From positions 1-55,534 of the IMG/VR virus record IMGVR_UViG_3300031277_000003: a stretch of DNA of 55,534 nucleotides; one strand, 5' to 3'. The translations under genes and the position numbers were made by a program. Below the pieces are notes generated by a model. That model was not told the DNA's origin, ran no database searches, and worked only from the letters and a program-made list of their open reading frames with translations. The DNA is from a virus. Below, one piece after another: positions 11,539 through 45,742 of the stretch (within the stretch, counting starts at the first letter, position 1; each line of letters begins with the position of its first letter).

Positions 11539-11658
11539 ATGGATGAGGAAGTGAAACATTGCCCAGAGTGCGGGGCTGTTTGGGATACTGAACATAACCG
11601 ATGTACTGCAAATTGTCAATCAACAGAAAGGTTCGATTATGAGCAAACTAAAAGCTAA
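11539..11658 (+). CDS. Very small zinc-ribbon protein
   Basis: 39 aa after AAAGGAGGAACGG. CPECG at 8-12 and C22, C26 make a four-cysteine knuckle. Overlaps the recombinase start by 20 nt. Confidence 0.5.
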   Translation: MDEEVKHCPECGAVWDTEHNRCTANCQSTERFDYEQTKS

Positions 11659-12532
11659 AAAGCCGGAAGAAGTAAAACAGGGAAAAGCAAAAGGTCTTAT
11701 TTTTGGAGCAAGCGGAGTGGGTAAAACGTTTTTTGCGCTTACCTTTCCAACCCCTTACTATATCGACACCGAAGGGGGAGCTGATGGCATAGAGTACCAG
11801 AAACGTCTCAAAGCGGCGGGAGGCGCGTACATGGGACCGGAAGAAGGGGCGCTTGACCTTTCGGCGATCGTTACCGAAATGCAGACTCTTGCCACCGAAA
11901 AACATGGCTACCATACATTGGTGATCGATTCGATTACGAAAGCGTATCAAACCTGTATCGCTAATGAAGCAGAGCGTCTTGGTGAACGTGATGTTTTTGG
12001 CGCGTCAAAAAAACCGGCTATTGCACAAATGAGACGCCTCGTCAATTGGTGCATGAAGCTTGACATGAATATCTGGTTTATCGCGCATGAAACATCGGAA
12101 TGGGGAGTAAATCCAAAAACAGGACAGCGGGAAGAAATAGGCAAGTGTCCAGACGTGTGGGATAAACTCGTTTATGAGCTTGATCTGGGGCTTCGTATTA
12201 TTCGCAGAGGAACAGGTTTCCCGGCTATTGCCTTTGTTGCTAAATCCAGGCTTCCAGGCTTTCAAGATGGAACAACATTTCCTCTTGAATATGCTGAATT
12301 TTCAGCACGGTATGGTAAGGATTCCATTGAATCGGAAACATCACAAATAATCCTTGCCACAAAAGAACAAGTTGAGGAGATTGAAAGAATCGTTTCCGTT
12401 TTAAAAATAAAGGAAGAAGAAACGGAAAAAATCCTCACAAAGGCTGGAGCATCTTCATGGAGTGAACTCACTACCGAACAGGCAATAAAAACATTGGAAT
12501 GGTTAAACAATAAAATCAAAGGAGTAAAGTAA
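11639..12532 (+). CDS. Sak4-like RecA-fold ATPase
   Basis: 297 aa. Walker A GASGVGKT at 23-30, the IDTEGG strand near 42-47 and Walker B TLVIDS at 93-98 match the phage AAA_24/Sak4 single-strand annealing recombinase group, a RecA/Rad51-like core without extra domains. The C-terminal 60 residues are helical. In other phages these proteins pair strands with an SSB-like partner, and the next gene, overlapping by one base, is exactly such a protein. Role: recombination and recombination-dependent replication. Confidence 0.85.
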   Translation: MSKLKAKKPEEVKQGKAKGLIFGASGVGKTFFALTFPTPYYIDTEGGADGIEYQKRLKAAGGAYMGPEEGALDLSAIVTEMQTLATEKHGYHTLVIDSITKAYQTCIANEAERLGERDVFGASKKPAIAQMRRLVNWCMKLDMNIWFIAHETSEWGVNPKTGQREEIGKCPDVWDKLVYELDLGLRIIRRGTGFPAIAFVAKSRLPGFQDGTTFPLEYAEFSARYGKDSIESETSQIILATKEQVEEIERIVSVLKIKEEETEKILTKAGASSWSELTTEQAIKTLEWLNNKIKGVK

Positions 12533-14155: not shown

Positions 14156-14569
14156 ATGCGTAATATGTCATTTATGCTAAAACCACAACAGATTATAGAT
14201 GAAACAGCATTCGCTACCCGTCGGCTTGGATGGTGGTTTCTTAAACGGCTTGATCTGGTCTGCGCGGTCAAAAAAGGCATGGGTCTTAAGAAGGGTGAAA
14301 AAGTAGTACGGTTAAAAACAATAATCATCCTCTCCACCTATCCGCAGGAATTAAATAAAATAACGGTTAGGGATGTAGAATTAGAGGGATTCCCAGGCAA
14401 ATCTCCGGAATGGTTCATAGATTTTTTTTGTACATCGCATAAACGATGCTTTCCAAACACGATAGTAAATGTAATCAATTTTACTTATTATAAAAATTGG
14501 GAAGAATTTGGAATTGAAGTAGACAAACAATTTAAAGCCTATCAAAACAGGAAAAAATTAAATGGGTAG
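14156..14569 (+). CDS. ASCH-domain protein
   Basis: 137 aa from the ATG after GAAAGGTTGATT. FMLKPQQI, TRRLGWWFLKRLDLVCAVKKGMGLKKGEK and a later EGFPGKSPEWFIDFFC follow the ASCH pattern (an RNA-binding beta-barrel related to the PUA domain) seen in many phages. Probable RNA-binding or RNA-processing role. A second, different ASCH-like protein is carried by cassette 9 of the array. Confidence 0.8.
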   Translation: MRNMSFMLKPQQIIDETAFATRRLGWWFLKRLDLVCAVKKGMGLKKGEKVVRLKTIIILSTYPQELNKITVRDVELEGFPGKSPEWFIDFFCTSHKRCFPNTIVNVINFTYYKNWEEFGIEVDKQFKAYQNRKKLNG

Positions 14570-14999
14570 ATTATCACAGCAGCTCGGGAAAACCGGGGAA
14601 GAGGCCGCACGGTGGTATCTGCAAAACCTTGGATTCAAAGACGTGGAAAAATTAGCCACCCCTATGGTTAAAACTAAAAAAGGATGGGTTCACAGCAAAA
14701 AATCTTCGGTTGACTTCATCGCATGTATGCCGCAACCCGGGTGCATTTATCCCTATGCCGTCGCAAGGATCGAGGTTAAATATCACAACGGCGACACCCT
14801 ACCACATAGCGTAATGCAACCACATCAGTCGGAAAAACTGAGATCCTGGCACGAGAAAAAACTCCCTGCATTCGTTCTCTGGGTTCATACATGGATAGGA
14901 AACCAAATAGAATGCTATCTTATTGATTATCCAAACCCATACTTTAGACGCGGTAAAGCCCTGTCCGTGGAAACAGCAAAAAAAATATCATGGAAATGA
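14562..14999 (+). CDS. RecU-like PD-(D/E)XK nuclease
   Basis: 145 aa overlapping the ASCH gene by 8 nt. GKTGEEAARWYLQNLGF, SVDFIAC (Asp51), ARIEVKYHNGD (Glu71, Lys73), MQPHQSEKLRSWHEKK and FVLWVH resemble RecU/Hjc-type Holliday-junction resolvases and related phage nucleases. Expected to process branched DNA made by the recombinase module. Confidence 0.7.
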   Translation: MGRLSQQLGKTGEEAARWYLQNLGFKDVEKLATPMVKTKKGWVHSKKSSVDFIACMPQPGCIYPYAVARIEVKYHNGDTLPHSVMQPHQSEKLRSWHEKKLPAFVLWVHTWIGNQIECYLIDYPNPYFRRGKALSVETAKKISWK

Positions 15000-15043: not shown

Positions 15044-15268
15044 ATGTCAGCAAAAAAAACACAGTTCCCTAAACCAAGCCACGGACTCTATATTGAAGAT
15101 TCTTTGTGGGAATTCTGTAGAGACAAATCAACAGAACGCGGATCATTCCATAATAAAACAGGATCATCAAGCGAATACATCAGACGTGCTTTCAAAGCAT
15201 GGATTTTAAAAGAAATGCCATACTTAAAAAAAGTTATGAAAGATGTTGACTGGGATGAAGCATATTAG
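15044..15268 (+). CDS. Ribbon-helix-helix-like protein
   Basis: 74 aa. SEYIRRAFKAWILKEM with an upstream strand (HGLYIEDSLWEFC) suggests a ParD/CopG-like ribbon-helix-helix DNA binder. No Shine-Dalgarno site is visible; an AT-rich TATATT-containing stretch precedes it. Last backbone gene before the cassette array, ending 29 nt before the first core site. Confidence 0.5.
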   Translation: MSAKKTQFPKPSHGLYIEDSLWEFCRDKSTERGSFHNKTGSSSEYIRRAFKAWILKEMPYLKKVMKDVDWDEAY

Positions 15269-15297: not shown

Positions 15298-15306
15298 GTT
15301 GTGTGG
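15298..15306 (+). other. Lone GTT core, left boundary of array
   Basis: CCGTTGTGTGG without a matching L''/L' structure upstream, preceded by an imperfect complement (ACACATAAACAAC). Could be an attI-like or secondary integration site where the first cassette entered. Confidence 0.5.
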
Positions 15307-15455
15307 AAATAAAGGAGCCTTTTATGTCAGTAAGCGCGCGTGTGAAAAGTGAGCCAGTCGGGTCACTGCATGCATACCTGAACGCCCTAGAGGGTTCGAG
15401 TCCCGTAGCAAGTGCGCGCGGAACACTATGGAAGGCTCCTTTACGTTCACACAAC
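15298..15455 (+). ncRNA. Cassette 1: ORF-less, probable structured RNA
   Basis: No credible coding sequence. AAAGGAGCCTT just inside the left end is the exact complement of AAGGCTCCTTT near the right end, so the whole cassette could fold on one 11-bp stem. GCGCGC blocks near both ends of the interior could extend it. Cassette 6 has the same ends with an unrelated interior. The RNA call is inference; no known RNA family was recognised. Confidence 0.4.
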
Positions 15456-15606
15456 AGCCGCAGCCAGCAATATCCGGCGTTCAGGTCAACGGTCGGGGTC
15501 ATGTCCGAACGTTTAGCCCGTACCGGTGCGGTTGATACCAAGTCCGGAACTGCGCCGGATACTGCTGGCGACCCGGCGAAGCGCCAGTGCGGCCAACCGT
15601 TGTGCA
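15448..15606 (+). other. attC-like site 1
   Basis: R'' CACACAAC, R' GTTGTGCA. GCCGCA/TGCGGC and GCCAGCA/TGCTGGC pair, with CCGGCG/CGCCGG further in. A side hairpin (CCCGGCGAAGCGCC) sits on the right arm. Confidence 0.85.
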
Positions 15607-15653
15607 ACATTAACCGGTGAGTCTCTATTGGAGGCCGCCGCAAGAAAGGGAAT

Positions 15654-15947
15654 ATGAAATATCTAACAATTGGCAAGTATCGTGGCGATGATTTTCCAGG
15701 CTGCCCGTTCATCATATCAAAAGAACTAGATTCGAAAGAAGAAGCTATTCGCATTTTATCAACTCTTACTTCGTCGTTCTACGATTTGATGATAGTAGAA
15801 ATAACCGACATATTTTTCGAAGTCGCAGACGTTGTAGCGGCGGCTGGGCAAGTGGAATCACCGGTAAACGTCGCACAACAAACGCTACCCGCAGCGGGCG
15901 AAGCGCCCTTGGCCGATGGCACATTGGAAACGTCGGGTAGCGTCTGA
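15654..15947 (+). CDS. Cassette 2 protein, unknown
   Basis: 97 aa after AAGAAAGGGAAT. Residues 1-70 form an alpha/beta sequence (KYLTIGKYRGDDFPG, then FIISKELDSKEEAIRIL) with no family recognised. The last 24 or so residues (from QQTLPAAGEA) are encoded by the attC site and recur identically in cassette 3, so they are not part of the ancestral domain. The leader (GAGTCTCTATTGGAGGCCGCC) is shared with cassette 5. Confidence 0.6.
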   Translation: MKYLTIGKYRGDDFPGCPFIISKELDSKEEAIRILSTLTSSFYDLMIVEITDIFFEVADVVAAAGQVESPVNVAQQTLPAAGEAPLADGTLETSGSV

Positions 15948-15957
15948 CCGTTGTGTG
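15872..15957 (+). other. attC-like site 2
   Basis: R'' CGCACAAC, R' GTTGTGTG. ACGCTACCCG pairs exactly with CGGGTAGCGT. Inner GGGCGAAGCGCCC hairpin. Nearly identical to site 3. Confidence 0.88.
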
Positions 15958-16006
15958 CAATTGCCTGCGAGAGCGTTATTGTAGGCCGCGCTAAAAAGGG
16001 GATTTT

Positions 16007-16240
16007 ATGAATATACAATGTCCATTTTGCAAAGAAACCGATTTTGATCTTATTGGCCTGAAGAATCATTTGTTGTCTGGTCACTGCGAAGATTTCAATG
16101 ATGTGATGTCTGTTGAAGAAGAGCAGGCGGCGCGGCAGCATTTTAAGGAGTCGCAGGCCACAGACGCACAACAAACGCTACCCGCAGCGGGCGAAGCGCC
16201 CTTGGCCGATGGCACATTGGAAACGTCGGGTAGCGTCTGA
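16007..16240 (+). CDS. Cassette 3 zinc-finger protein
   Basis: 77 aa after AAAAAGGGGATTTT. CPFC at 5-8 and LKNHLLSGHC near 18-27 give a C2H2/C2HC finger. C-terminal tail from the attC (QQTLPAAGEA...) matches cassette 2. Possibly a small DNA- or protein-binding factor. Confidence 0.6.
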   Translation: MNIQCPFCKETDFDLIGLKNHLLSGHCEDFNDVMSVEEEQAARQHFKESQATDAQQTLPAAGEAPLADGTLETSGSV

Positions 16241-16250
16241 CCGTTATAAG
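16165..16250 (+). other. attC-like site 3
   Basis: R'' CGCACAAC, R' GTTATAAG. Same ACGCTACCCG/CGGGTAGCGT stem as sites 2 and 14. Confidence 0.88.
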
Positions 16251-16297
16251 GCAATAAATTATTCTTTTATATAAATAGTCAAAATGGAGCGGAACTT

Positions 16298-16534
16298 ATG
16301 AAATGGCAAGATGCGAGAATCGCTGAAAATGTAACGGATGAACTTTCCGACCTTAACTCTGTTCTCAATATTGTTTCTCAGATACCGAAAGGTGCTGCAA
16401 ACAGAATATTGCATTACTGTCATAATTATGTTAATAGAGACAGTGATGAATCACATCCAGTTGTTGAAAAGAAAGTGTCTGATGTAATGGAAGCTTTAAA
16501 GGGTTCCATTTTGAAGGATGATAAGGAGTCATAA
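16298..16534 (+). CDS. Cassette 4 protein, unknown
   Basis: 78 aa after ATGGAGCGGAACTT. All-helical; IPKGAANRILHYCHNYVNR stands out. No family recognised. Stops just before its attC, so it has no attC-encoded tail. Confidence 0.6.
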   Translation: MKWQDARIAENVTDELSDLNSVLNIVSQIPKGAANRILHYCHNYVNRDSDESHPVVEKKVSDVMEALKGSILKDDKES

Positions 16535-16542
16535 TTTACATG

Positions 16543-16696
16543 CTTATAACAGCGGCAGCCAGCAATACCGGGCATTGGATAGAGGCGGTATCTAATAATG
16601 TTACGACATTGTAAAATGATACAATATCACGTCGGGCATCGACGCCCGGTACTGCTGGCGAACCGTCGAAGCGCCGATGCCGCTGACCGTTATCGG
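16543..16696 (+). other. attC-like site 4
   Basis: R'' CTTATAAC, R' GTTATCGG. AGCGGCA/TGCCGCT, GCCAGCA/TGCTGGC and TACCGGGC/GCCCGGTA pair. The interior of about 75 nt is almost identical to that of site 16. Confidence 0.88.
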
Positions 16697-16750
16697 CAAT
16701 AAACCGGCGAGTCTTTGTTGGAGGCCGCCACAAAATACGGAGCGTTTTTT

Positions 16751-17029
16751 ATGATCCTTACTGAATTAATAGCCGAGAAACTTGATTGCGCACACGACTA
16801 TGTTAAATTATCGTCACTTTTTAAAGAGGATTTTGAAATAGATTCTCTTGATGAAATTGAACTTATTATGGCATGCGAGGATGAATACGATGTTGAAATA
16901 TCTGATGAAGAGGCGCAAGATATTAAGTCCGTTTCCGACGCCGCAAAGCTTCTTCTAGAAAAAGGCGTGGCGGCGGATAAATTAGGAGTCGCTGGTTTAC
17001 AGCCTATAACAGCGCCAGCCCAACATTGA
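16751..17029 (+). CDS. Cassette 5: acyl carrier protein
   Basis: 92 aa from the ATG after TACGGAGCG. Residues 1-72 have the acyl carrier protein pattern: KEDFEIDSLDEIELIMACEDEY with the DSL motif at 31-33 (Ser32 would carry phosphopantetheine), then DVEISDEEAQDIKSV and a final helix. Highly acidic, as the family is. The last 15 or so residues come from the attC. Acyl carrier proteins shuttle acyl chains in fatty-acid or polyketide synthesis. No other lipid gene is present, so it must work with host enzymes or act as a decoy. An in-frame start at 16715 is upstream of the ribosome site and unlikely. Confidence 0.85.
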   Translation: MILTELIAEKLDCAHDYVKLSSLFKEDFEIDSLDEIELIMACEDEYDVEISDEEAQDIKSVSDAAKLLLEKGVAADKLGVAGLQPITAPAQH

Positions 17030-17061
17030 AACGTCGGGCGGGTGGCGCGGGCCGTTGTGTG
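17003..17061 (+). other. attC-like site 5 (short)
   Basis: R'' CCTATAAC, R' GTTGTGTG. GCGCCA/TGGCGC and GCCC/GGGC pair with an extra base on the right arm. At 59 nt it has the length of a classical 59-base element. Confidence 0.82.
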
Positions 17062-17234
17062 GAAATAAAGGAGCCTTTTTGAATTGTATTGCGCGACGAA
17101 GAGAACGTAGCCGATGTACGGCAAGGACGAAAAGTGTGGGCATGAGCGACATACGGCGGAGCCTGCAACGTCAAGCTGGCGGAAAATCATCGGTTCGCGC
17201 GACACTAGGGAAGGCTCCTTTACGTTCACACAAC
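17054..17234 (+). ncRNA. Cassette 6: ORF-less, probable structured RNA
   Basis: Shares about 27 nt at the left end and 25 nt at the right end with cassette 1, including the exactly complementary AAAGGAGCCTT/AAGGCTCCTTT. The interior is different; GCGCGA near 17091 can pair with TCGCGC near 17203. Continuous frames here read straight through the attC and have non-natural composition. Confidence 0.4.
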
Positions 17235-17370
17235 AGCCGCAGCCAGCAATTGCACCGCTCCCCAAGGTGCCCGCAGATGCGTAATAGCATACACCTATCC
17301 AGCCCCTTGCAGCGAGGTGATGCGGTCGGGGGCGGTGCAACAGCTGGCGGGTGCGGCAAACCGTTATCGG
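17227..17370 (+). other. attC-like site 6
   Basis: R'' CACACAAC, R' GTTATCGG. GCCGCA/TGCGGC, GCCAGC/GCTGGC and TTGCACCGC/GCGGTGCAA pair. Confidence 0.85.
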
Positions 17371-17401
17371 CAATTATTGCCTCTTGAGAATTGGAGTTGA
17401 A

Positions 17402-17605
17402 ATGGTCGATAAAAACGGAGTTAAAATTAAGCCCGGATATGTTTTGTATAACCCTCACGATGAATACGGGTACTATACTGTAATTGCTGGTCCAGACGAT
17501 AAATTATTTCTTGGAGATTTAGATTCTCCATTAGAAAGATTTTCTCCGGAAGAGTTTTGGACCATTTCAAATAGAAATAAGGAATCGGCAACAACATGCT
17601 TATAA
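17402..17605 (+). CDS. Cassette 7 protein, SH3-like beta barrel
   Basis: 67 aa after TTGGAGTTGAA. DKNGVKIKPGYVLYNPHDEYGYYTVI is typical of small SH3/KOW-like barrels found in phage proteins (compare YopX-like and DUF2158 proteins). Its TAA stop lies within the R'' core of its attC. Confidence 0.55.
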   Translation: MVDKNGVKIKPGYVLYNPHDEYGYYTVIAGPDDKLFLGDLDSPLERFSPEEFWTISNRNKESATTCL

Positions 17606-17748
17606 CAGCCGCAGCCAGCAATATGTGGGGCATCATGCTACGGAAGAAAGTGTGTGTGATTGAACGGTGTTGCGCAACATTTATTAAGTCCATGCCCCAC
17701 ATACTGCTGGCGACCCGTCGAAGCGCCGGTGCGGCCAACCGTTATGCA
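17599..17748 (+). other. attC-like site 7
   Basis: R'' CTTATAAC, R' GTTATGCA. GCCGCA/TGCGGC, GCCAGCA/TGCTGGC and TATGTGGGGCAT/ATGCCCCACATA pair. Confidence 0.87.
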
Positions 17749-17782
17749 AAATTTCGTTACAAGAGATCGATTGGAGTTTTTT

Positions 17783-18034
17783 ATGCTTGATAAAGATATC
17801 GACACTGTTGACACAATGGTGCATTGGAGTATTACATCAACAGCGGCAAACGAGGCGTGGCAACGCATAAAAAAAGAACTGTCGGAACTCGCTCAACTAT
17901 CGCATAACACAGGCAGCCCAAAATTGCCGACTAGCTGTATTGATTGTCCGTTAAGTTTGATTTGTGGTCAACCGGTAGTTATAAATGATGAGTCGTGCCA
18001 GTATTGTCGTCGGCAACTTCGGGCGGGTGCCTGA
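17783..18034 (+). CDS. Cassette 8 protein, Cys-rich C-terminus
   Basis: 83 aa after TTGGAGTTTTTT. The first half is helical (WQRIKKELSELAQL). The second half (CIDCPLSLICG...CQYCRRQ) is cysteine-rich and lies inside the attC interior, so the recombination site itself encodes a putative metal-binding domain. Confidence 0.55.
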   Translation: MLDKDIDTVDTMVHWSITSTAANEAWQRIKKELSELAQLSHNTGSPKLPTSCIDCPLSLICGQPVVINDESCQYCRRQLRAGA

Positions 18035-18046
18035 CGACGTTGTGTT
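17901..18046 (+). other. attC-like site 8 (coding)
   Basis: R'' CGCATAAC, R' GTTGTGTT. AGGCA/TGCCT, GCCC/GGGC and TTGCCGAC/GTCGGCAA pair; the loop of about 90 nt encodes the Cys-rich end of the cassette 8 protein. Confidence 0.8.
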
Positions 18047-18080
18047 ACATTAAGTTTTCTTGAGTATTGGAGGTTTCAAG

Positions 18081-18428
18081 TTGGCTGTTCATTATTTAAA
18101 AACGTGGCCTCAGTATTTTGCCGCCATAATCAGCGGTGAAAAAACGTTCGAAATTCGTAAAAACGATAGAGAGTTTAAGGTTGGCGACAGCCTTTGCCTT
18201 CAAGAATTTATTCCAAGCCACGAACAGTTTACAGGCCGGGTTTGGGTTGTAATAGTAACATACATTTTCAATGGCGGCTCGTTAGGCGTCTATTCTTCAT
18301 ACTGCGTACTTGGTATCCGCCAACTTTCAACAGCAGAATTAGGAATCAAACTGAACGTCACACAACAGCGGCTAAATGCTACGCCTTCGGCTCCGGCACA
18401 AGGCACATGCGAAACGCACGTCACTTAG
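18081..18428 (+). CDS. Cassette 9: DUF3850 (ASCH-like) protein
   Basis: 115 aa from a TTG after TTGGAGGTTTCAAG. HYLKTWPQYFAAIISGEKTFEIRKNDREFKVGD, TGRVWVVIVTYIF and YCVLGIR closely follow DUF3850, an ASCH/PUA-like RNA-binding family common in phages. The last 20 or so residues are attC-encoded. The family match is strong, making this one of the clearest cassette assignments. Confidence 0.85.
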   Translation: MAVHYLKTWPQYFAAIISGEKTFEIRKNDREFKVGDSLCLQEFIPSHEQFTGRVWVVIVTYIFNGGSLGVYSSYCVLGIRQLSTAELGIKLNVTQQRLNATPSAPAQGTCETHVT

Positions 18429-18444
18429 CCGCAGATGTTAAATG
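18359..18444 (+). other. attC-like site 9
   Basis: R'' CACACAAC, R' GTTAAATG. GCGGCTAA pairs exactly with TTAGCCGC. Confidence 0.83.
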
Positions 18445-18495
18445 AAATACCGCCCTCTTGAGATTTGGGGGCGCGGCTAAAACCGGGAGGTTATC

Positions 18496-18690
18496 TTGTT
18501 AATAAACATTATTGTTCAGGTTGACACATCTACAGATCCAGTGTACAACAATAAATCTTTTGATGATGTGCGCAAGTATTTATTTGATGAAGCAAAACGA
18601 ATATATGAAGATGGGATTGAATTAATAGACGTTGTTGTCGCCGCGCAGGAGAAAGAGGAATCGGGCGGTACTTCACTTAACATCGGGTAA
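18496..18690 (+). CDS. Cassette 10 protein, unknown
   Basis: 64 aa from a TTG after CCGGGAGGTTATC. Strand-helix-strand (NIIVQVDTSTDPV, FDDVRKYLFDEAKRIYEDG, IELIDVVVAAQE). No family recognised. C-terminal residues enter the attC. Confidence 0.55.
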   Translation: MLINIIVQVDTSTDPVYNNKSFDDVRKYLFDEAKRIYEDGIELIDVVVAAQEKEESGGTSLNIG

Positions 18691-18743
18691 ATGTCGCTTA
18701 CGCTTAATGCTACGCACTACACTTACCCGAGGGCCGTTGTGTG
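18674..18743 (+). other. attC-like site 10
   Basis: R'' CACTTAAC, R' GTTGTGTG. TCGGGTAA pairs with TTACCCGA. Confidence 0.82.
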
Positions 18744-18797
18744 GAAATAAAATTGATTTTTATATAAATAGTTTTTGCTCACTACATTGGAGGTTCT

Positions 18798-18941
18798 ATG
18801 AAAGTTAAAATGATATTTAAAAGGCTCGATTCTCGTCGAGAAGATTTTGATAGAATGATGAAAAGCAACATTGGAGAGCTTAAGGTGCGTGCTAGAATGG
18901 AAACAGGCGGTTATCACAAGCCCGGTAGTCTAAAGAAATAA
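18798..18941 (+). CDS. Cassette 11 mini-protein, basic
   Basis: 47 aa after ATTGGAGGTTCT. Basic and helical (MIFKRLDSRREDFDRMM). Ends 41 nt before its attC. Too short for a family call. Confidence 0.5.
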   Translation: MKVKMIFKRLDSRREDFDRMMKSNIGELKVRARMETGGYHKPGSLKK

Positions 18942-18982
18942 CACCGTTCGCAAAATAATATTATGGTAATCAATTTTACATT

Positions 18983-19106
18983 CACACAACAAACGTTAAA
19001 TTCAATACCGGCATACGGTGCGGGCAATTGTCAATGTCTCATGGCAGGGGTGGAGCCCTCCGAAGTACATTATGCCGGTACTAAACTTAACCTAATCCGT
19101 TGTACA
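18983..19106 (+). other. attC-like site 11
   Basis: R'' CACACAAC, R' GTTGTACA. TACCGGCAT/ATGCCGGTA and GTTAA/TTAAC pair. Confidence 0.8.
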
Positions 19107-19161
19107 AAATGTCTGGCCGGAGAAAATTGGAGTTCGGCTGGCTTAACATTGGAGGCTTCGA

Positions 19162-19434
19162 GTGAGTGATATCAAAGTTATTTTCCATTGCAAAAAGCAC
19201 GGAATATTAAAGTGCTCCGATGTGATTGCGTTAAATGGCGGATACATTTGTGGGTTATGTTTTAATTCACAGCCAGCCGAAGTACAGGGGGACGGCCAGG
19301 CACATCGTACAACACTGCCAGCCCAAAATATCGACTTAAAGACAGGTGTTATTAATATTAACAATTTACATGGTTCCGATCAGTGTAACGGAACTGAGGT
19401 ACCGGCGCAACTTCTGTTATCGCCAATACGTTAA
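19162..19434 (+). CDS. Cassette 12 zinc-ribbon protein
   Basis: 90 aa from a GTG after TTGGAGGCTTCGA. HCKKHGILKC followed by YICGLCF near residues 8-33 gives a Cys4 zinc ribbon. The rest, from about residue 45, is attC-encoded. Unknown role. Confidence 0.55.
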   Translation: MSDIKVIFHCKKHGILKCSDVIALNGGYICGLCFNSQPAEVQGDGQAHRTTLPAQNIDLKTGVININNLHGSDQCNGTEVPAQLLLSPIR

Positions 19435-19437
19435 ATG
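19306..19437 (+). other. attC-like site 12 (degenerate)
   Basis: R'' CGTACAAC matches the cassette's opening GTTGTACA, and R' GTTAAATG opens the next cassette, but no complementary L''/L' arms were found. Possibly a hybrid or decayed site. Confidence 0.5.
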
Positions 19438-19493
19438 AAATTTTTGGCGAGTCTTTATAATAGGCCGCCGCTAACCATAAACGAAAGGGTATC

Positions 19494-19751
19494 ATGTCTA
19501 GGCCAGATTGTTATAATTGTAAAGGGCGCGGTTCTATTCCAGGTGATTGTCATTCAACCTGTTCACAGCGACAAGCCCATGTTGTTGGTGATACTACTGG
19601 TATTCGTGGGGGTTGGTTTAATTGGCCGTGGAATTTTGATCCTACATGGCTAGTATCGTGCGATAGTTTTGTACCATTAAGTGGCAAAGAAGCGGCGGAA
19701 GAACAAGGGGAGTCACCGTTTACTTCTGCTAACAGCGGCAGCACAAAATAG
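19494..19751 (+). CDS. Cassette 13 protein with DnaJ-like Cys motif
   Basis: 85 aa after CGAAAGGGTATC. CYNCKGRGSIPGDCHSTC at about 6-23 resembles one DnaJ-type CxxCxGxG zinc module. C-terminal residues are attC-derived. Confidence 0.5.
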   Translation: MSRPDCYNCKGRGSIPGDCHSTCSQRQAHVVGDTTGIRGGWFNWPWNFDPTWLVSCDSFVPLSGKEAAEEQGESPFTSANSGSTK

Positions 19752-19803
19752 CGGAGCTACTTCGTGCGCCCCGGCTCTGGCCGGTGCCGCGATCCGTTGG
19801 CGG
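19726..19803 (+). other. attC-like site 13
   Basis: R'' CTGCTAAC, R' GTTGGCGG. GCGGCA/TGCCGC pair. Confidence 0.72.
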
Positions 19804-19830
19804 TAATTGCCGCCTTAGAAACTAATTAAT

Positions 19831-20067
19831 ATGAGCAGCGCATATAAAATAGAGGATACTGGAAAGGAGTTTATTGTAAAGCGGCACGGAGGATGGTCTA
19901 GGGCTATTATCCAGTATACTATGCATAATATTGATAGGTCTTTTTACATGGCAAAGGTTTGTTGCGCTGCTCTAAATGCTGCGGAATCGGCGACAACTAA
20001 CCGCCAACAAACGCTACCCGCAGCGGGCGAAGCGGGCTTGGCTTCGCACATTGGAAACGTCGGGTAG
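19831..20067 (+). CDS. Cassette 14 protein, unknown
   Basis: 78 aa. YKIEDTGKEFIVKRHGGW looks like the strand-rich start of a small phage-type protein; a helix follows (FYMAKVCCAALNAAES). No good ribosome site. The C-terminus carries an attC-encoded tail starting QQTLPAAGEA like cassettes 2 and 3. Confidence 0.5.
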   Translation: MSSAYKIEDTGKEFIVKRHGGWSRAIIQYTMHNIDRSFYMAKVCCAALNAAESATTNRQQTLPAAGEAGLASHIGNVG

Positions 20068-20084
20068 CGTATGACCGTTGGTAA
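20001..20084 (+). other. attC-like site 14
   Basis: R'' CCGCCAAC, R' GTTGGTAA. ACGCTACCCG/CGGGTAGCGT stem as in sites 2 and 3. Confidence 0.87.
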
Positions 20085-20136
20085 AAATTTGCCGGGCTTG
20101 AGATAATAAAGCGCGGCTCTTTTAAGGAGGTATCAG

Positions 20137-20424
20137 TTGCTTACAGTTCGCTTTCCTAATGGCCAAGCCGTTCAGTATAACACTGCAAATTATGTTAAGA
20201 GCTCCACCGAATATTCAGACATATACGAGAAGAAAGATGGCGTATGGGTGGCTCAAGTTCCTAATACTTGCATTATTGAAGCTGTCAATGCCTGTCGTGT
20301 GTACCATGCCCCGGAAAGCGAACTGACGGCCAGTATTGCTAATCAAATAGAAGTTTTAGGTCGGAAGTTACTCCGCGCTTATCGTGATGAGGCCCGGAAA
20401 ACTTCTACCAACAAGCGGCTATAA
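20137..20424 (+). CDS. Cassette 15 protein, unknown
   Basis: 95 aa from a TTG after TTAAGGAGGTATCAG. Beta-rich first half (TVRFPNGQAVQYNTANYV), helical end (IANQIEVLGRKLLRAYRDE). No family recognised. Ends inside its attC. Confidence 0.55.
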   Translation: MLTVRFPNGQAVQYNTANYVKSSTEYSDIYEKKDGVWVAQVPNTCIIEAVNACRVYHAPESELTASIANQIEVLGRKLLRAYRDEARKTSTNKRL

Positions 20425-20483
20425 GGCTCGCGGACTCGTCCCAAATTGCAAGGCGACTTCGCATAGCCGCTGACCGTTACACG
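20405..20483 (+). other. attC-like site 15
   Basis: R'' CTACCAAC, R' GTTACACG. AGCGGCTAT pairs exactly with ATAGCCGCT. Confidence 0.85.
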
Positions 20484-20508
20484 CAATAAAAATTTAAGGA
20501 GGTTTCCA

Positions 20509-20769
20509 TTGGATAAAATTTTGGCTTTTTTCGGATTGTGCAGAATCGAGAAGGCGAAGGGTGTTTCACTTTGCATGCATTTGCATTACGTCAGGCAGGT
20601 TCAATATGGTGTTGAAAAAGATTTCGGCGTTAAGCCTAATCAAGAGGCTATTGAGATAACAACATCGGCGTGGTTACAAAATTTCTATCAAGCCATGAAA
20701 GAGTCTGAAAACTCGAACGGCGTCAATATTACAAACGCGCCAAAATTTTCTGATTGCTATGAAAATTAA
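20509..20769 (+). CDS. Cassette 16 protein, unknown
   Basis: 86 aa from a TTG after AAGGAGGTTTCCA. Contains CMHLHYVRQVQYGVEKDFG and a helical end. No family recognised. Stops before its attC. Confidence 0.5.
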   Translation: MDKILAFFGLCRIEKAKGVSLCMHLHYVRQVQYGVEKDFGVKPNQEAIEITTSAWLQNFYQAMKESENSNGVNITNAPKFSDCYEN

Positions 20770-20780
20770 ATTTTTACAGT

Positions 20781-20935
20781 CGTATAACAGCCGCAGCCAG
20801 CAATACCGGGCATTGGATAGAGGCGGTATCTAATAATGTTACGACATTGTGAAATGATACAATATCACGTCGGGCATCAGTGCCCGGTATTGCTGGCGAC
20901 CCGGCCAGGGGCCAGTGCGTGAGGACGGTGTACAA
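20781..20935 (+). other. attC-like site 16 (altered R' core)
   Basis: R'' CGTATAAC. A 17-bp perfect inner stem runs from GCCAGCAATACC to its complement. The right outer arm reads TGCGTG instead of TGCGGC, and the core is GGTGTACA where GTTGTACA is expected, so recombination at this site may be impaired. Confidence 0.7.
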
Positions 20936-20975
20936 TGCCTGCCTTTTTAGAATATAGGCGGGCGGAAAGGAGCTT

Positions 20976-21359
20976 ATGAAATATCAAGAAGCTATTAAAA
21001 CGGTACAAGCGGCTTTGCGAAGAGACAAAGAGTTGTATTATTCTTTTCAGGCTAATATCGCCATGCAATTTGTTGACGAAAATCGCCGTCAAGGAAGTCG
21101 CGATTCATATAAAAAGGTTCACGGAGTTGCGAACGAAGCAGCAAAGAATTTTCTTAACTTGCTTATTAAACCAGTCCGCCCGCAGAAAAGCGGAAGCGGC
21201 AGTCACTATACACAACAAAGCAAGGCAGGCTCCGAAGACTGCGCCCAAATTGCCGCTCGTATGCGTGAACTTGCTTCTGAACCGTGCAAGGCCGGATTTG
21301 TTCCAATATCAACAGAAACCTTAAACGAATGGGCGCGGCAACTTCTGCCTTGCTCATGA
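20976..21359 (+). CDS. Cassette 17 protein, phage-like helical family
   Basis: 127 aa after GAAAGGAGCTT. LYYSFQANIAMQFVDE, then VHGVANEAAKNFLNLL, resembles small helical proteins of phages and bacteria that carry a WHCNIA...HxAANxAAxxFM pattern; function unknown. About the last 50 residues lie inside its attC. Confidence 0.6.
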   Translation: MKYQEAIKTVQAALRRDKELYYSFQANIAMQFVDENRRQGSRDSYKKVHGVANEAAKNFLNLLIKPVRPQKSGSGSHYTQQSKAGSEDCAQIAARMRELASEPCKAGFVPISTETLNEWARQLLPCS

Positions 21360-21368
21360 AGTTATCCC
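21209..21368 (+). other. attC-like site 17, right end of array
   Basis: R'' TACACAAC, R' GTTATCCC. AGCAAGGCAG pairs exactly with CTGCCTTGCT. The convergent late operon ends 39 nt further on. Confidence 0.83.
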
Positions 21369-35779: not shown

Positions 35780-36318
35780 TTTAAAACATCCTCAAGGTTT
35801 GCAATTTCAAAACAATCCAATTCGGTATACCGGCTACAATTATAGATTTTAACACCAAGCTTTTTTGCAGAATCCGATACCCGCTTAAAATGGCCTTTCC
35901 ACATATTAACTTTATCTTTATTTGGATTGCGTAATTTTTTTCCGATATGATCACCGTGCCAGTGAATACCGTTTTTCAATGAGCAATCATACCCAAGAAG
36001 AGCAATATTTTTAAACCCTTTGAATATTCCGAACTGTATAGCACGCATACCGGAATTGTAGCCGCCTGAAGCGAAATGAAAATTTATTTTATACTTATTC
36101 GCTGCGGTTGTTGAACAGGTCCATTTTTCTACGTCAATATTTATTTTATTGAAATAGATATCCCACCATTTAGTATCACCGGCGTAAATATAGTCACAAA
36201 AAGAAGCGATTTCCCATGAGTTATTAACGGCAACGGTTTTTATACTGCTCTGTTTTACCAACTCACAATCATCAGCGGTAAGACTCGGCCCTGATGCTAT
36301 GCAGAAAAGATCAATCAC
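35776..36318 (-). CDS. Rossmann-like glycan-related protein
   Basis: 180 aa. FCIASGPSLTADDCELVKQ, VAVNNSWEIASFCDYIYAGDTKWW and SGMRAIQFGIFKGFKNIALLGYDCS match a family common in phages and related to DUF115/Maf-type glycosyltransferases. Substrate unknown. Confidence 0.7.
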   Translation of the reverse strand: MIDLFCIASGPSLTADDCELVKQSSIKTVAVNNSWEIASFCDYIYAGDTKWWDIYFNKINIDVEKWTCSTTAANKYKINFHFASGGYNSGMRAIQFGIFKGFKNIALLGYDCSLKNGIHWHGDHIGKKLRNPNKDKVNMWKGHFKRVSDSAKKLGVKIYNCSRYTELDCFEIANLEDVLK

Positions 36319-36335
36319 AATATTAATACCAGTTG

Positions 36336-36620
36336 TTATATGATTATTTCAGAACTTGACTCCGACACCTTAATAATAAATGACCTTTCAGCGGTTCGCC
36401 CGTCTGAAGTTGTTATTGTATTAGTAATAACATATCGTGACCCATTAGTACCTCCAGACAGCCAAACCGTTGCAGTAGTGGTAGTGTTTGACGAGCTATC
36501 CTTAGTAATACCAGTTTGAACAACAAAAGCACTTGTACTAATCGTATCAGTATCGAGCCAATCAGACCAATTTACCTGATAATCAAGAACCTCTTGTGGA
36601 TCTTTTACAAACTGCTGCAT
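36336..36620 (-). CDS. Ig-like phage fibre domain protein
   Basis: 94 aa. KDPQEVLDYQVNWSDWLDTDTI, ATVWLSGGTNGSRYVITNTITTSDGRTAERS is a widespread small Ig-like fibre or decoration protein pattern. Gene-poor stretch 36621-36729 follows on the upstream side; nothing recognised there. Confidence 0.75.
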   Translation of the reverse strand: MQQFVKDPQEVLDYQVNWSDWLDTDTISTSAFVVQTGITKDSSSNTTTTATVWLSGGTNGSRYVITNTITTSDGRTAERSFIIKVSESSSEIII

Positions 36621-36729
36621 TATAATACCTTACTATCATTTTATTTTTTTTAATCGGAGTTAACGTCAATATCACCGATTGCAAACTTCGGTTTCCGCTA
36701 CATTAGAGAATGACATTTTTTACTCCTTA

Positions 36730-36984
36730 TTAAATTATTATGCTTCTGTTTTCATAGTCTACTTCTAAAGTTCTATTATCTGTCAGAATAAATATCGTTC
36801 TTTCGTCAGGTGTTATTATTATTTCCGTTGAAACATCGAGCCCGATCCAATACCCGAGAACGTTCTCACTGTCATCGGTGGAAAACGAACTATCGGGAGT
36901 CAGCGGGATAAAAAGCAAACTGGTTATCCCGAACGTAGCCAGGTTCATGGCGCTTCTCCGGAGATCGACGGTATCGAAAGCCAT
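36730..36984 (-). CDS. Small structural protein, unknown
   Basis: 84 aa. TPDERTIFILTDNRTLEVDYENRSIII resembles the small proteins often encoded beside the Ig-like decoration protein. Overlaps the upstream fibre gene by one base. Confidence 0.55.
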   Translation of the reverse strand: MAFDTVDLRRSAMNLATFGITSLLFIPLTPDSSFSTDDSENVLGYWIGLDVSTEIIITPDERTIFILTDNRTLEVDYENRSIII

Positions 36985-38918
36985 CAGCTCATCGCCCCCG
37001 AGGTTTGTGTTGTTCCGTCGTCGGTCAGCGTTCTGGTTCCCAAAGTGCTGACCCCATCACTCTGATAAATCGTATGCACGCCAGTATCTTTATTGAAAGT
37101 TGCTTTCTGTATTGCAGAGTGAACTAAATATGCAAGTTTACCCGCAAGGGCGGCCCCGTCGGCTGGCTTTGCCGTTACCTCTGCAAAAGCGGAAAGAAAA
37201 ACAGTTTGCAGCGCGTCGGTATCCGCGAGAACCGCATCAACCACGGTATCAATTGTATCGAGTTTTCCCTCATTGGTATCGCCCTGGGAGGTCAATTCAT
37301 CGAGGATAAGATCGACACGCCCGCCGTTCGTGATATCGGTTTGCAGCTCGTTGGTATCGGCTACAATCGCCGCGAGTTGCGTGCTGTTGCTATCCATCTC
37401 CGCCCGGTTTTCCGCTGCGGTTGGAAGCGCGGCGTGCTCCGCCGGTAGAGTGGTTCCGGTATCTACGAGAATGGCGTCTGCCGTGGTATCGATAATATCT
37501 ATTTTCGCATCAATCGCCGACAGTGCGCCCGGGGTATCATCGGTCTGGAGTTCGTTGGTATCAGCGAGGATAGCATCGAGAATCAAATCAAGCCTCCCGC
37601 CGTCTGCCCAGTCTACTACTACCGTCGATCCGGTATTGAGAACGGCGAAATAACTATCCCCGTCCGGAATCGTCGCCCATGCCGGTGTAACCGTCGCTGT
37701 TTTAGTCGCGCCGTCATATCCTACACAAGTCCGGGCCTGTCCTGCTCCGGTCCCTAAAACTATGGCGATCAGTTGCCCTTTGTAAAAATCATTTACCGCT
37801 GAGGCCCCGGCATCAAGATCGATTGTCGTTACTCCTCCGGCATCGCCGCATTGAGCAACCCGCACAACAACGGTAGAATAAGTTGTCCCTACGGCAAGGC
37901 CCATCGTGCCCGCTCCGGTATGCCCTGATTGCGCCTCATCCCATACCGCATCTGCAATACCTTCCTCGGTAAGAGCCGATCCACCGGCGTTATCCGCTGT
38001 CTCTTTTACCACCGATCCGGCAACCGCAGATGCGTAATCCGTACCGCTGTCGGTATTAAATAGGTCGGCAAGCGCCGAAGCCTGAATCTCGTCAACACTC
38101 ACATCGGCCACCGCCGTATCGAGTTCCGCCTTTGTCGGGGGATCGTAAGCGGTAAGTGCGTCAGCGCACTCGCTTTGTACCTCAGCGTCCCAATTGGCGT
38201 TCCAGGGCACCGCTGTAAACTGGTCTCCTGTCCCTCCCGCTTCGGTAAGACCGGCACCTGCTGCCCCTATCTCTGCGGTATCAACCAAAATGTCATCGAC
38301 AATCCCGTCAACGGTATCAAGTTTCCCGTCATGAGTGGCTAATGCTGTTGCGGTCGCCGCGCTATCGGTCCCGCGCATATCGGAATTGGTCGTACAGGTA
38401 TCGGTAAGCACAACACCCGCAACTTTATGAGTCGTTGGATCATACCCGGTATCGGCAAAGTCTTTTAAATCGGTTGCGGATTGTGCGACTCCGCCGATCA
38501 TGGTCAGGTTTGCATCCACTTCACCAGTTGCCTGGATATCAAGGGTGCGTCCTGCTGTCGTCGGGCGCAAGGTGCAGCCGATTGAAAACCCGCCCACCCA
38601 GGCGTTAAGCGTTCCGCCGTCAACGGTCACACCTTCAATGCGGACAAGATACCTCGACCCTGCGGAATAAAAACCGGCGTCCGTATTGTCACTTAAATCA
38701 ATATGGATCATGTGGTTTCCAGTAATACTATCGAAATCAATATCAACGGTCATCCCGTTATCACTCGCCCGTTGCGTCGCACTTCCATCCTTGTGGATCT
38801 CAATATCCCCGGCGGCCAAATTTGTCATCGTGACCGATGCCGTCGGGTCGTCGGATGAAAAAGAATTTACCGGTATATGAACCGTTTCCGTAGTGTCAAA
38901 ATCGCCTGCATTATACAT
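36984..38918 (-). CDS. Long fibre/baseplate protein with repeats
   Basis: 644 aa. The N-terminal 120 residues are beta-rich (attachment domain). From about 160 the chain contains repeated units such as DTVDGIVDDILVDT, ILADTNELQTDD and LVDTGTTLPAEHAAL, which suggest a trimeric coiled or beta shaft. Ala/Asp/Thr-rich. High GC compared with its neighbours, suggesting a different origin. Confidence 0.7.
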   Translation of the reverse strand: MYNAGDFDTTETVHIPVNSFSSDDPTASVTMTNLAAGDIEIHKDGSATQRASDNGMTVDIDFDSITGNHMIHIDLSDNTDAGFYSAGSRYLVRIEGVTVDGGTLNAWVGGFSIGCTLRPTTAGRTLDIQATGEVDANLTMIGGVAQSATDLKDFADTGYDPTTHKVAGVVLTDTCTTNSDMRGTDSAATATALATHDGKLDTVDGIVDDILVDTAEIGAAGAGLTEAGGTGDQFTAVPWNANWDAEVQSECADALTAYDPPTKAELDTAVADVSVDEIQASALADLFNTDSGTDYASAVAGSVVKETADNAGGSALTEEGIADAVWDEAQSGHTGAGTMGLAVGTTYSTVVVRVAQCGDAGGVTTIDLDAGASAVNDFYKGQLIAIVLGTGAGQARTCVGYDGATKTATVTPAWATIPDGDSYFAVLNTGSTVVVDWADGGRLDLILDAILADTNELQTDDTPGALSAIDAKIDIIDTTADAILVDTGTTLPAEHAALPTAAENRAEMDSNSTQLAAIVADTNELQTDITNGGRVDLILDELTSQGDTNEGKLDTIDTVVDAVLADTDALQTVFLSAFAEVTAKPADGAALAGKLAYLVHSAIQKATFNKDTGVHTIYQSDGVSTLGTRTLTDDGTTQTSGAMS

Positions 38919-41913: not shown

Positions 41914-42656
41914 TATGACCTACTTTGAAAGACTTTGACGTAATCAATATAAATCGTACCGATACCGGTATTATTTGACGATACAGCCTTGCTTACATTA
42001 ATATATGGCTGTACCTTTGCTTCTGATGCACTTAACGTGGTAGACATATCAGACGTACCAACGAGAGTTTCATCAACATAAAACTTTACCGCTGCTGTAT
42101 TGGTACAATCAATCCGGTAAATATTATATGTATCTGCAACCAGTATAGTACTTGCGCTGTTGTCATTGTCGTCGGTATCGCCATTGTCTGTTTCCCACAG
42201 GAGTGCTGTCTGAGCCGCACTTTCGACTTTGAACCATACGTTTGTGGCAATGTTATCTAAAACAGCATTATGTGCGCTTGCAAGTCCGATAACAGCCTGG
42301 ACATCTTCGGTTCCCGTTGTCGGCAACACATGAAAAGTCAGCCTTGCTTCGAAGATAAGCCCCTGCGCCATACTCAGACAAAGATTATCTCCAAAATGTA
42401 ACGCGGCAATCTCTGCATTATCGTCAGAATCAAGGGTCAATTGCAAGACACCATTTATTTCACTGGCAACCAGTGCAATGGCTGTATTGAGATTTGTCTC
42501 GGTCGTTCCCCAGAAGGTTGTATTATACGCCTCTCCGAGAAAGTCATCATTGACAACAACCGGATACATCGGGAGCAGTGTTTCGCCGTTTGACCCATCG
42601 TAGAAAACCTGGCGACCGTGCGCGAACTTCGAATAATTACATTTTACGATACTCAC
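41913..42656 (-). CDS. Lectin-like structural protein
   Basis: 247 aa. The central 170 residues (LIFEARLTFHVLPTTGTEDVQAVIGLASAHN, NIYRIDCTNTAAVKFYVDETLV) look like a concanavalin-type jelly roll. Possibly a capsid-surface carbohydrate-binding protein. Confidence 0.6.
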   Translation of the reverse strand: MSIVKCNYSKFAHGRQVFYDGSNGETLLPMYPVVVNDDFLGEAYNTTFWGTTETNLNTAIALVASEINGVLQLTLDSDDNAEIAALHFGDNLCLSMAQGLIFEARLTFHVLPTTGTEDVQAVIGLASAHNAVLDNIATNVWFKVESAAQTALLWETDNGDTDDNDNSASTILVADTYNIYRIDCTNTAAVKFYVDETLVGTSDMSTTLSASEAKVQPYINVSKAVSSNNTGIGTIYIDYVKVFQSRS

Positions 42657-44744: not shown

Positions 44745-45727
44745 ACTGCTTTCTCCTTTTGAGTTATTGATTTTGTTTTTTCCAACAATTCGACAACCGG
44801 GTCAACCAATTTTTTGGCCTCTTCAATATGGTCAACCGTGTCGCCCTCTTCACCTTGTGGCTTTTCACCAGCATCTCGCTGATCGGCACCGGTATCTTTT
44901 TGTGCATCTCGCACATCGGGATTATCGGGTTCGCTCCGGGCATCTCGCTCGTTACGAAAAACCTTTGCCACTATATCCTTGGCCTGATTCCGGGAATACC
45001 CTACATCTCGCAGGTTTTTCTCCAAATCACGCTCGTTAAGATCCTTTTTGTTATCGGTAGTTGCTTTATTTCGTATTTTCAGCCTGTCGGGTACGTTGTT
45101 ATATACCGATAGATCGTATTTTCCTTCAACAGGTTCACCGTCATACACTCGATCAACAAGGCCGATATCCAAAGCTTCTTGTGCGGTAAACCACGTTTCT
45201 TTATCCATATAATCAAGAAACTCGGAAGCTTCTTTACCGGTCTTTTTAGCGTAATCGTTCGCTATAGATTGATTTATTTTTTCATGAAGCGATATTTCTT
45301 TGTTTATACTTTCAACAAGTTCCTGCATTGACTTTATATTGAAATATCCCAACACGTCAAGAATACTTAATGCGTTATGTATCATTAAAAACCCGCCATC
45401 AACAATTTCGATTTCATCGGCGCCCATAACAAGAAACGATGCGGCAGAAGCAGCAAGGCCATCGATATGTGCGATCACCTTTGACTTATGCTGCATTATA
45501 GCGGTTTTCATCGCCCGCGCCGTGAAAATATCACCACCCCCGGAATCGACACGAAGATGGATAGTTTTAGCCTTTATCTCATTAAATTCTTTAATGAAAT
45601 CCGTTTGGTCAATTCCAAACCAGCCGCCTATATCACCGTAAAGGTAAATCGTAGCCTCATCGTCTTTGTTCTGAATATCTATCTTGTTTTCCATCCGGCG
45701 TGATGCCATTTTCCGCATTGTAATCAT
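44741..45727 (-). CDS. Prohead protease, ClpP type
   Basis: 328 aa from the ATG 8 nt after AAGGA; a TTG two codons earlier is less likely. IHLRVDSGGGDIFTARAM, DGLAASAAS with Ser94 as nucleophile, and FLMIHNA with His117 give the ClpP (S14) active site. The C-terminal 120 residues are charged and helical, a probable scaffolding domain. Cleaves the capsid delta domain during head maturation. Confidence 0.93.
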   Translation of the reverse strand: MITMRKMASRRMENKIDIQNKDDEATIYLYGDIGGWFGIDQTDFIKEFNEIKAKTIHLRVDSGGGDIFTARAMKTAIMQHKSKVIAHIDGLAASAASFLVMGADEIEIVDGGFLMIHNALSILDVLGYFNIKSMQELVESINKEISLHEKINQSIANDYAKKTGKEASEFLDYMDKETWFTAQEALDIGLVDRVYDGEPVEGKYDLSVYNNVPDRLKIRNKATTDNKKDLNERDLEKNLRDVGYSRNQAKDIVAKVFRNERDARSEPDNPDVRDAQKDTGADQRDAGEKPQGEEGDTVDHIEEAKKLVDPVVELLEKTKSITQKEKAV

Positions 45728-45742
45728 TTGCAAAATCCTTTT

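Follow-up and report, generated by a model that had tools for sequence, protein, structure and literature searches.

How does a phage come to carry a row of short gene-bearing segments separated by hairpins, and is such a row an integron-type cassette array? The question is raised by IMG/VR virus record IMGVR_UViG_3300031277_000003, 55,534 bases from an uncultivated virus that were analysed at full length (the window). This record encodes an HK97-type capsid protein, a portal, DnaB and a terminase, the last of which shares 69% identity with the terminase of Pseudomonas phages TC7 and phi2. Between positions 15298 and 21367 of the + strand we find 17 co-oriented units with 17 inter-unit hairpins. 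In almost every unit the two ends are complementary beyond the core, to about 45 nt into the unit, and this architecture spans at least three phage lineages. With slightly more belief than doubt, we interpret the locus as a row of mobile cassettes that lacks an integrase and represents a distinct type associated with phages, its cassettes probably being moved in trans as folded single strands.

Matched unit ends and array anatomy

The units open with GTT and close with AAC, with one exception (unit 17, core GGT at 20927). Within each unit the core letters of both ends agree at 55 of 68 variable positions, compared to 27.6 ± 4.3 for permuted partners (0 of 100,000); when cores are compared to those of the next unit, 26 of 68 variable letters are equal. 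A sequence-only reading of this DNA had described 17 sites in one direction, with GTT/AAC cores that agree within each cassette, and these numbers bear it out. Like an integron, the array closes with a hairpin and, after it, GTT.

Complementarity past the core is organized in three boxes. Box 1 consists of GTTNNNN and reaches nt 9, a conserved mismatch follows near nt 10-11, and box 2 covers approximately nt 12-21. After a spacer of 13-15 nt with conserved letters, box 3 starts 31-40 nt from the core (mostly 34-39), irrespective of where the start codon lies. Its mean length is 7.9 nt, compared to 4.3 nt in pairs of ends from different units and 4.2 nt in integron cassettes. The box sequences vary between units and agree inside each unit. 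Arrays of this kind also occur in the two terminase relatives of the window, G002 (82% identity) and G006 (75%), in G789, which was reached via a tail protein (64%), and in G792 and G793/G794, to which a pattern from one hairpin family led. The match over nt 9-45 scores 8.29 for own and 2.84 for permuted partners in the window (z 10.1), 7.55 and 3.03 in G006 (z 6.3), 9.20 and 4.71 in G002 (z 3.0), 8.89 and 4.11 in G789 (0 of 20,000), and 11.38 and 3.69 in G792 (0 of 20,000). Pooling of 50 phage units gives z 13.8. Boxes 1 and 2 covary, with 165 double changes against 69 ± 6 after shuffling (33 units, ungapped alignment).

The integron cassettes used as controls do not show this property. The genomic control comprised 17 arrays located close to intI genes in sampled Pseudomonadota, with 103 cassettes that do not match past the core (extended score 2.71, permuted 2.78, z -0.5). 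The same is true for 14 Vibrio and 11 Shewanella cassettes with cores agreeing at 7/7 positions. Clusters of attC sites lacking integron-integrases (CALINs) have been published for the virulent phages TJE1, P12002L and PH101 (Qi et al. 2023, PMC9892861). The two complete cassettes of TJE1 have 7/7 cores and extended scores of just 3 and 2. On one common measure, the chain score, 30 integron loci reach at most 36 and the window reaches 86. When we looked widely for integrons on plasmids from outside Pseudomonadota, class 1 integrons dominated the results.

The array and its surroundings contain the following features.

11639..12532, + strand: gene for a Sak4-like single-strand annealing protein
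14562..14999, + strand: Holliday junction resolvase-like gene, 5' of the array
15044..15268, + strand: small open reading frame (ORF) directly 5' of unit 1, ribbon-helix-helix-like by eye, no Pfam match
15298..15455, + strand: unit 1, 158 nt, without ORF; first unit, without a hairpin upstream
15456..15598, + strand: hairpin 1, long type, AGCCGCAGCCAGCAAT...
15599..15879, + strand: unit 2, ORF 15654-15947, final codons inside hairpin 2
15880..15949, + strand: hairpin 2, AAACGCTACCC type, common to hairpins 3 and 14
15950..16172, + strand: unit 3, ORF 16007-16240, zinc-finger-like
16173..16242, + strand: hairpin 3, AAACGCTACCC type
16243..16550, + strand: unit 4, ORF 16298-16534
16551..16688, + strand: hairpin 4, long type
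16689..17010, + strand: unit 5, ORF 16751-17029, acyl-carrier-protein-like (PF00550)
17011..17053, + strand: hairpin 5, short
17054..17234, + strand: unit 6, without ORF; ends near-identical to those of unit 1
17235..17362, + strand: hairpin 6
17363..17606, + strand: unit 7, ORF 17402-17605
17607..17740, + strand: hairpin 7, long type
17741..17908, + strand: unit 8, ORF 17783-18034; its diverged homologue is a cassette of phage G789
17909..18038, + strand: hairpin 8, ACAGGCAGCCCAAAATTG type, present too in G006, G792 and G794
18039..18366, + strand: unit 9, ORF 18081-18428, DUF3850/ASCH
18367..18436, + strand: hairpin 9
18437..18681, + strand: unit 10, ORF 18496-18690
18682..18735, + strand: hairpin 10
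18736..18990, + strand: unit 11, ORF 18798-18941 (47 aa)
18991..19098, + strand: hairpin 11
19099..19313, + strand: unit 12, ORF 19162-19434
19314..19429, + strand: hairpin 12, degenerate, base stem unclear
19430..19733, + strand: unit 13, ORF 19494-19751; mismatched core
19734..19795, + strand: hairpin 13, homologous hairpin in G789 beside other genes
19796..20008, + strand: unit 14, ORF 19831-20067
20009..20076, + strand: hairpin 14, AAACGCTACCC type
20077..20412, + strand: unit 15, ORF 20137-20424
20413..20475, + strand: hairpin 15
20476..20788, + strand: unit 16, ORF 20509-20769
20789..20926, + strand: hairpin 16, matching hairpin 4 at 89% identity along most of its length; degenerate right arm
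20927..21216, + strand: unit 17, core GGT; ORF 20976-21359
21217..21360, + strand: hairpin 17
21361..21367, + strand: terminal core GTTATCC, array end

A small ORF had been proposed to follow each site. This holds for 15 of the 17 units, with the ORF of unit 11 being just 47 aa long, and fails for units 1 (158 nt) and 6 (181 nt), which contain no convincing ORF. The array was correctly placed at the end of the early operon of the window phage; judged from gene order only, the cassettes would be expressed early. The cargo includes the DUF3850/ASCH protein (window 18081-18428) and the acyl carrier protein (window 16751-17029), and in G006 (44777-45484) and G002 (36257-37141) an N6/N4 DNA methyltransferase and a weak radical SAM match. 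This methyltransferase is related to the methyltransferase cassette of TJE1. DNA-level searches returned nothing from plasmids and a single 76-nt acyl-carrier-protein match from phages. At the 3' ends of several cassette genes (15654-15947, 16007-16240 and 19831-20067) the last codons are supplied by the hairpin, which explains why unrelated cassette proteins have a common C-terminus such as QQTLPAAGEAPLADG... The ribbon-helix-helix-like ORF, which could encode a regulator or an accessory factor, adjoins the first unit upstream in G006 too (about 42115-42318, again by eye and without a Pfam match).

Units without genes, approximately 155-180 nt long, lie at 15298-15455 and 17054-17234 in the window and at 42343-42502, 45504-45658 and 45713-45871 in G006. 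They have normal three-box ends and mutually unrelated interiors. These interiors fold slightly better than shuffles, with one of the five at z -2.3, and a scan against Rfam gave no match above cut-off; the idea that these units are structured RNAs is therefore unsupported.

The matched ends could instead act at the RNA level by folding each gene's transcript into a closed stem, with a role in processing, stability or translational control and with mobility as an incidental matter. Consistent with this idea, all units share the coding strand of what is presumably a polycistronic transcript, units without an ORF exist, and on the plus strand purines prevail among the mismatches of the spacer that precedes box 3. 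However, the nearly fixed spacing between core and box 3 is maintained in units 7, 8, 9 and 16, where box 3 falls over the start codon or within the gene. Such a stem would impede initiation, and a translational role is therefore disfavoured. Lone core mismatches also point elsewhere: nine are wobble pairs on the minus strand and one on the plus strand (p 0.02; six of the nine from G789). This bias leans to the minus strand, which is also the one that integrons use. Given also that the gene-less interiors fold barely better than shuffles and that Rfam yields no match above cut-off, we give an RNA-level role little credence. Scarcely credible is a series of side-by-side miniature inverted-repeat transposable elements. 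Inverted repeats do bracket each unit, but they are unit-specific instead of family-wide, and all units point in the same direction and are spaced by hairpins of one structural type.

Inter-unit hairpins and canonical attC sites

The inner inverted repeats noted in the sequence-only reading correspond to hairpins with a covarying base stem, in which 93.8% of cells are paired and 61 double changes contrast with 19.6 after shuffling (27 sites, three phages); hairpins 12 and 16 are degenerate. In most sites the left-arm spacer is 0-2 nt long, compared to 4-6 nt for the right-arm spacer, and the right arm contains extra bulges. Among 28 scorable phage sites, the difference between right and left reaches +3 or +4 in 27, which places the extra bases on the R'-L' arm. 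For canonical sites this difference is 0 in 85 of 126 cases and +4 in 13 of 126. In attC the extrahelical bases are by definition located on the R''-L'' arm, and shifting these bases together with the spacer to the other arm swaps the strand and the exchange point (PMC2727003). The asymmetry of the phage hairpins is the mirror image of that of canonical attC.

Covariance models separate the two kinds of site as well. Model R2, which we built from 42 canonical attC sites, detects TJE1's attC sites as well as genomic sites that had been held out. Model R1, which describes the window-type hairpins, recovers the phage arrays and finds no canonical site at E <1. Applied to two partly overlapping sets, one of 398 Pseudomonadota genomes and one of 369 genomes from a single class, R1 detected no array; lone matches in three bacterial genomes are not arrays. 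A right-arm attC pattern had no match in viral contigs, and its single match in a bacterial contig lies in coding sequence and is attributed to chance. Running an attC model had been proposed beforehand as a check on whether these sites are attC sites, and R2 recognizes none of those in the window. Together with the mirrored asymmetry and the ends matched past the core, this result leaves the description of the sites as ordinary attC unsupported: judged by defining features, window-type hairpins are not ordinary attC sites.

These data bear on the possibility that the locus is a conventional CALIN, composed of ordinary cassettes from the chromosomal integron of a host in a taxon with such attC sites (e.g. 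Spirochaetes, Deltaproteobacteria or another phylum). The cores, polarity, hairpins and integrase-less state are like those of phage CALINs, whose attC sites are recombinable: IntI1 acted on five of six phage sites assayed (PMC9892861). Taxon-specific attC types are known, some from phyla outside Pseudomonadota (PMC8352920), and our bacterial control set consists of Pseudomonadota only. Against this origin stand the lack of extended unit-specific ends in all 103 Pseudomonadota, 25 Vibrio/Shewanella and two TJE1 cassettes, the mirrored asymmetry, and the failure of the hairpin model to find an array in the sampled genome sets. We consider a conventional CALIN unlikely. The proposal of a CALIN-like array thus survives in part: the window has cassette logic in a phage without an integrase, but it is not an ordinary CALIN.

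Turnover, polarity and the search for a recombinase

The portal and capsid proteins of G002 and G006 are 70-85% identical to those of the window (portal 85%), and no cassette ORF of the window matches either phage at 1e-4. Cassette turnover, which the sequence-only reading had made a touchstone, is borne out by this disparity with terminases (TerL) at 75-82% identity. One diverged cassette gene is common to unit 8 of the window and G789 (31% over 65 aa). In G002 the array is located after the tail genes. The architecture also occurs in phages unrelated to the window. G792 has a GC content of 55%, and a few replication- or tail-type proteins alone resemble window genes. Its array was found with the detector already fixed, and the first unit chain scores 113. 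The near-identical records G793 and G794 encode a terminase and portal of other families than the window. Fetched sequences of the remaining terminase-list relatives (TerL at most ~69% identical) have chain scores of 35 or less, which is chance level, compared to 69-103 in arrays. Scans for exact peptides from the 771-aa tail protein and from DnaB returned no relatives. In G789, two units at about 16937-16246 (- strand) appear fused, with a closing end and hairpin lost, possibly as a deletion scar.

The first element of the array is a unit, with no hairpin ahead of it, in the window, G002 and G006. Two near-identical hairpins of G789 have 12 nt upstream in common, through the closing core, and the sequences diverge right after GTT. 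From the array starts and this hairpin pair we take a cassette to consist of a unit and the hairpin after it, with exchange between the G and TT of the core. The opposite assignment, a hairpin that travels with the downstream gene, is ruled out by the array starts.

As had been proposed, the array is without an integrase. The IntI profile TIGR02249 has no match in the window record, the tyrosine recombinase profile PF00589 has none in any array phage, and no serine recombinase was detected in the window, G002 or G006. Comparison of the proteins of six array phages revealed no family common to all. Since no recombinase is detectable in the array phages, the enzyme, if any, would be supplied in trans. 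Alternatively, the shuffling may be driven by the phage without a site-specific recombinase, by Sak4-like annealing and a Holliday junction resolvase acting on hairpins and matched ends. The window encodes a Sak4-like protein, an SSB-like protein and a Holliday junction resolvase upstream of the array, and hairpin families common to unrelated phages could provide homology; the failure to detect tyrosine or serine recombinases is also in line with this model. On the other hand, exact GTT/AAC boundaries and core matching suggest site-specific cutting, and none of the protein families is present in all array phages. We regard this scenario as distinctly improbable.

Proposed mobility and comparison with known systems

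From these sequence patterns we infer that the cassettes are mobile and still moving. A unit (GTTNNNN ... NNNNAAC) and the hairpin after it would form the cassette, with an integron-like exchange point between G and TT. The unit ends are complementary over approximately 21 nt, apart from the mismatch near nt 10-11, and again at box 3 about 35 nt in. In a single strand or a closed circle, the ends of a cassette would pair with their own partner only. An integron-type tyrosine recombinase, provided in trans by the host or another element, may move cassettes in folded single-stranded form, with the minus strand as the probable substrate. The extended matched ends may serve to hold or identify both ends of one cassette during excision or insertion.

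Several observations weigh against this integrase-less array moved in trans. No recombinase, attI or host was identified in our searches, and no direct excision or insertion event was seen. The canonical model R2 finds zero sites in the window, G006, G002, G789, G792 and G793/G794. Because of the mirrored asymmetry, a standard IntI might fail on these sites or take the other strand. The minus-strand wobble signal is small, with six of nine cases from one phage, and the purine richness of the mismatches in the stretch leading up to box 3 would be compatible with an RNA structure too. It is conceivable, though we would not call it probable, that the arrays belong to a separate phage cassette-exchange system, integron-like and with its own three-box folded substrate, a common pool among unrelated phages and an enzyme of a kind that has gone unrecognised.

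If the cassettes move, unrelated phages share an exchangeable pool of small early genes via a dedicated type of site, which would account for the fast turnover of such genes. The long matched ends touch an open question about integrons, namely how a gene gets bracketed by the halves of one site. Addition of such ends may be how cassettes arise, and the arrays supply many examples. Since they fall outside the canonical attC model built here from 42 sites, such arrays may be under-counted.

Promoter-early stem-loops (PeSLs) of T4-like phages (Arbiol 2010 and Comeau 2014, as cited in PMC4503421) offer one comparison. These are stem-loops between small early phage genes that are tied to gene shuffling, as the window hairpins may be. 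Unlike the units of the window arrays, a PeSL combines an early promoter with a stem-loop. PeSLs are not known to have GTT/AAC cores or matched ends specific to a unit. Sedentary chromosomal integrons from Vibrio, Shewanella and other Pseudomonadota resemble the window array in their GTT/AAC cores that agree within the cassette, their polarity, the hairpin after the gene, and the joining of similar hairpins to different genes. They differ by symmetric spacers, extra bases on the left arm and a match limited to the 7-9 nt core. Carriage of cassettes by phages is already known, and we found no description of a three-box mirrored architecture in unrelated phages in the open-licence literature. 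Published phage CALINs are likewise integrase-less rows of cassettes with hairpin sites and with cores that agree within each cassette. TJE1 contains three attC sites of canonical type, found by the canonical model and without an extended end match. The window, in contrast, has 17 units, mirrored hairpins and three-box ends, an arrangement that recurs in several phages.

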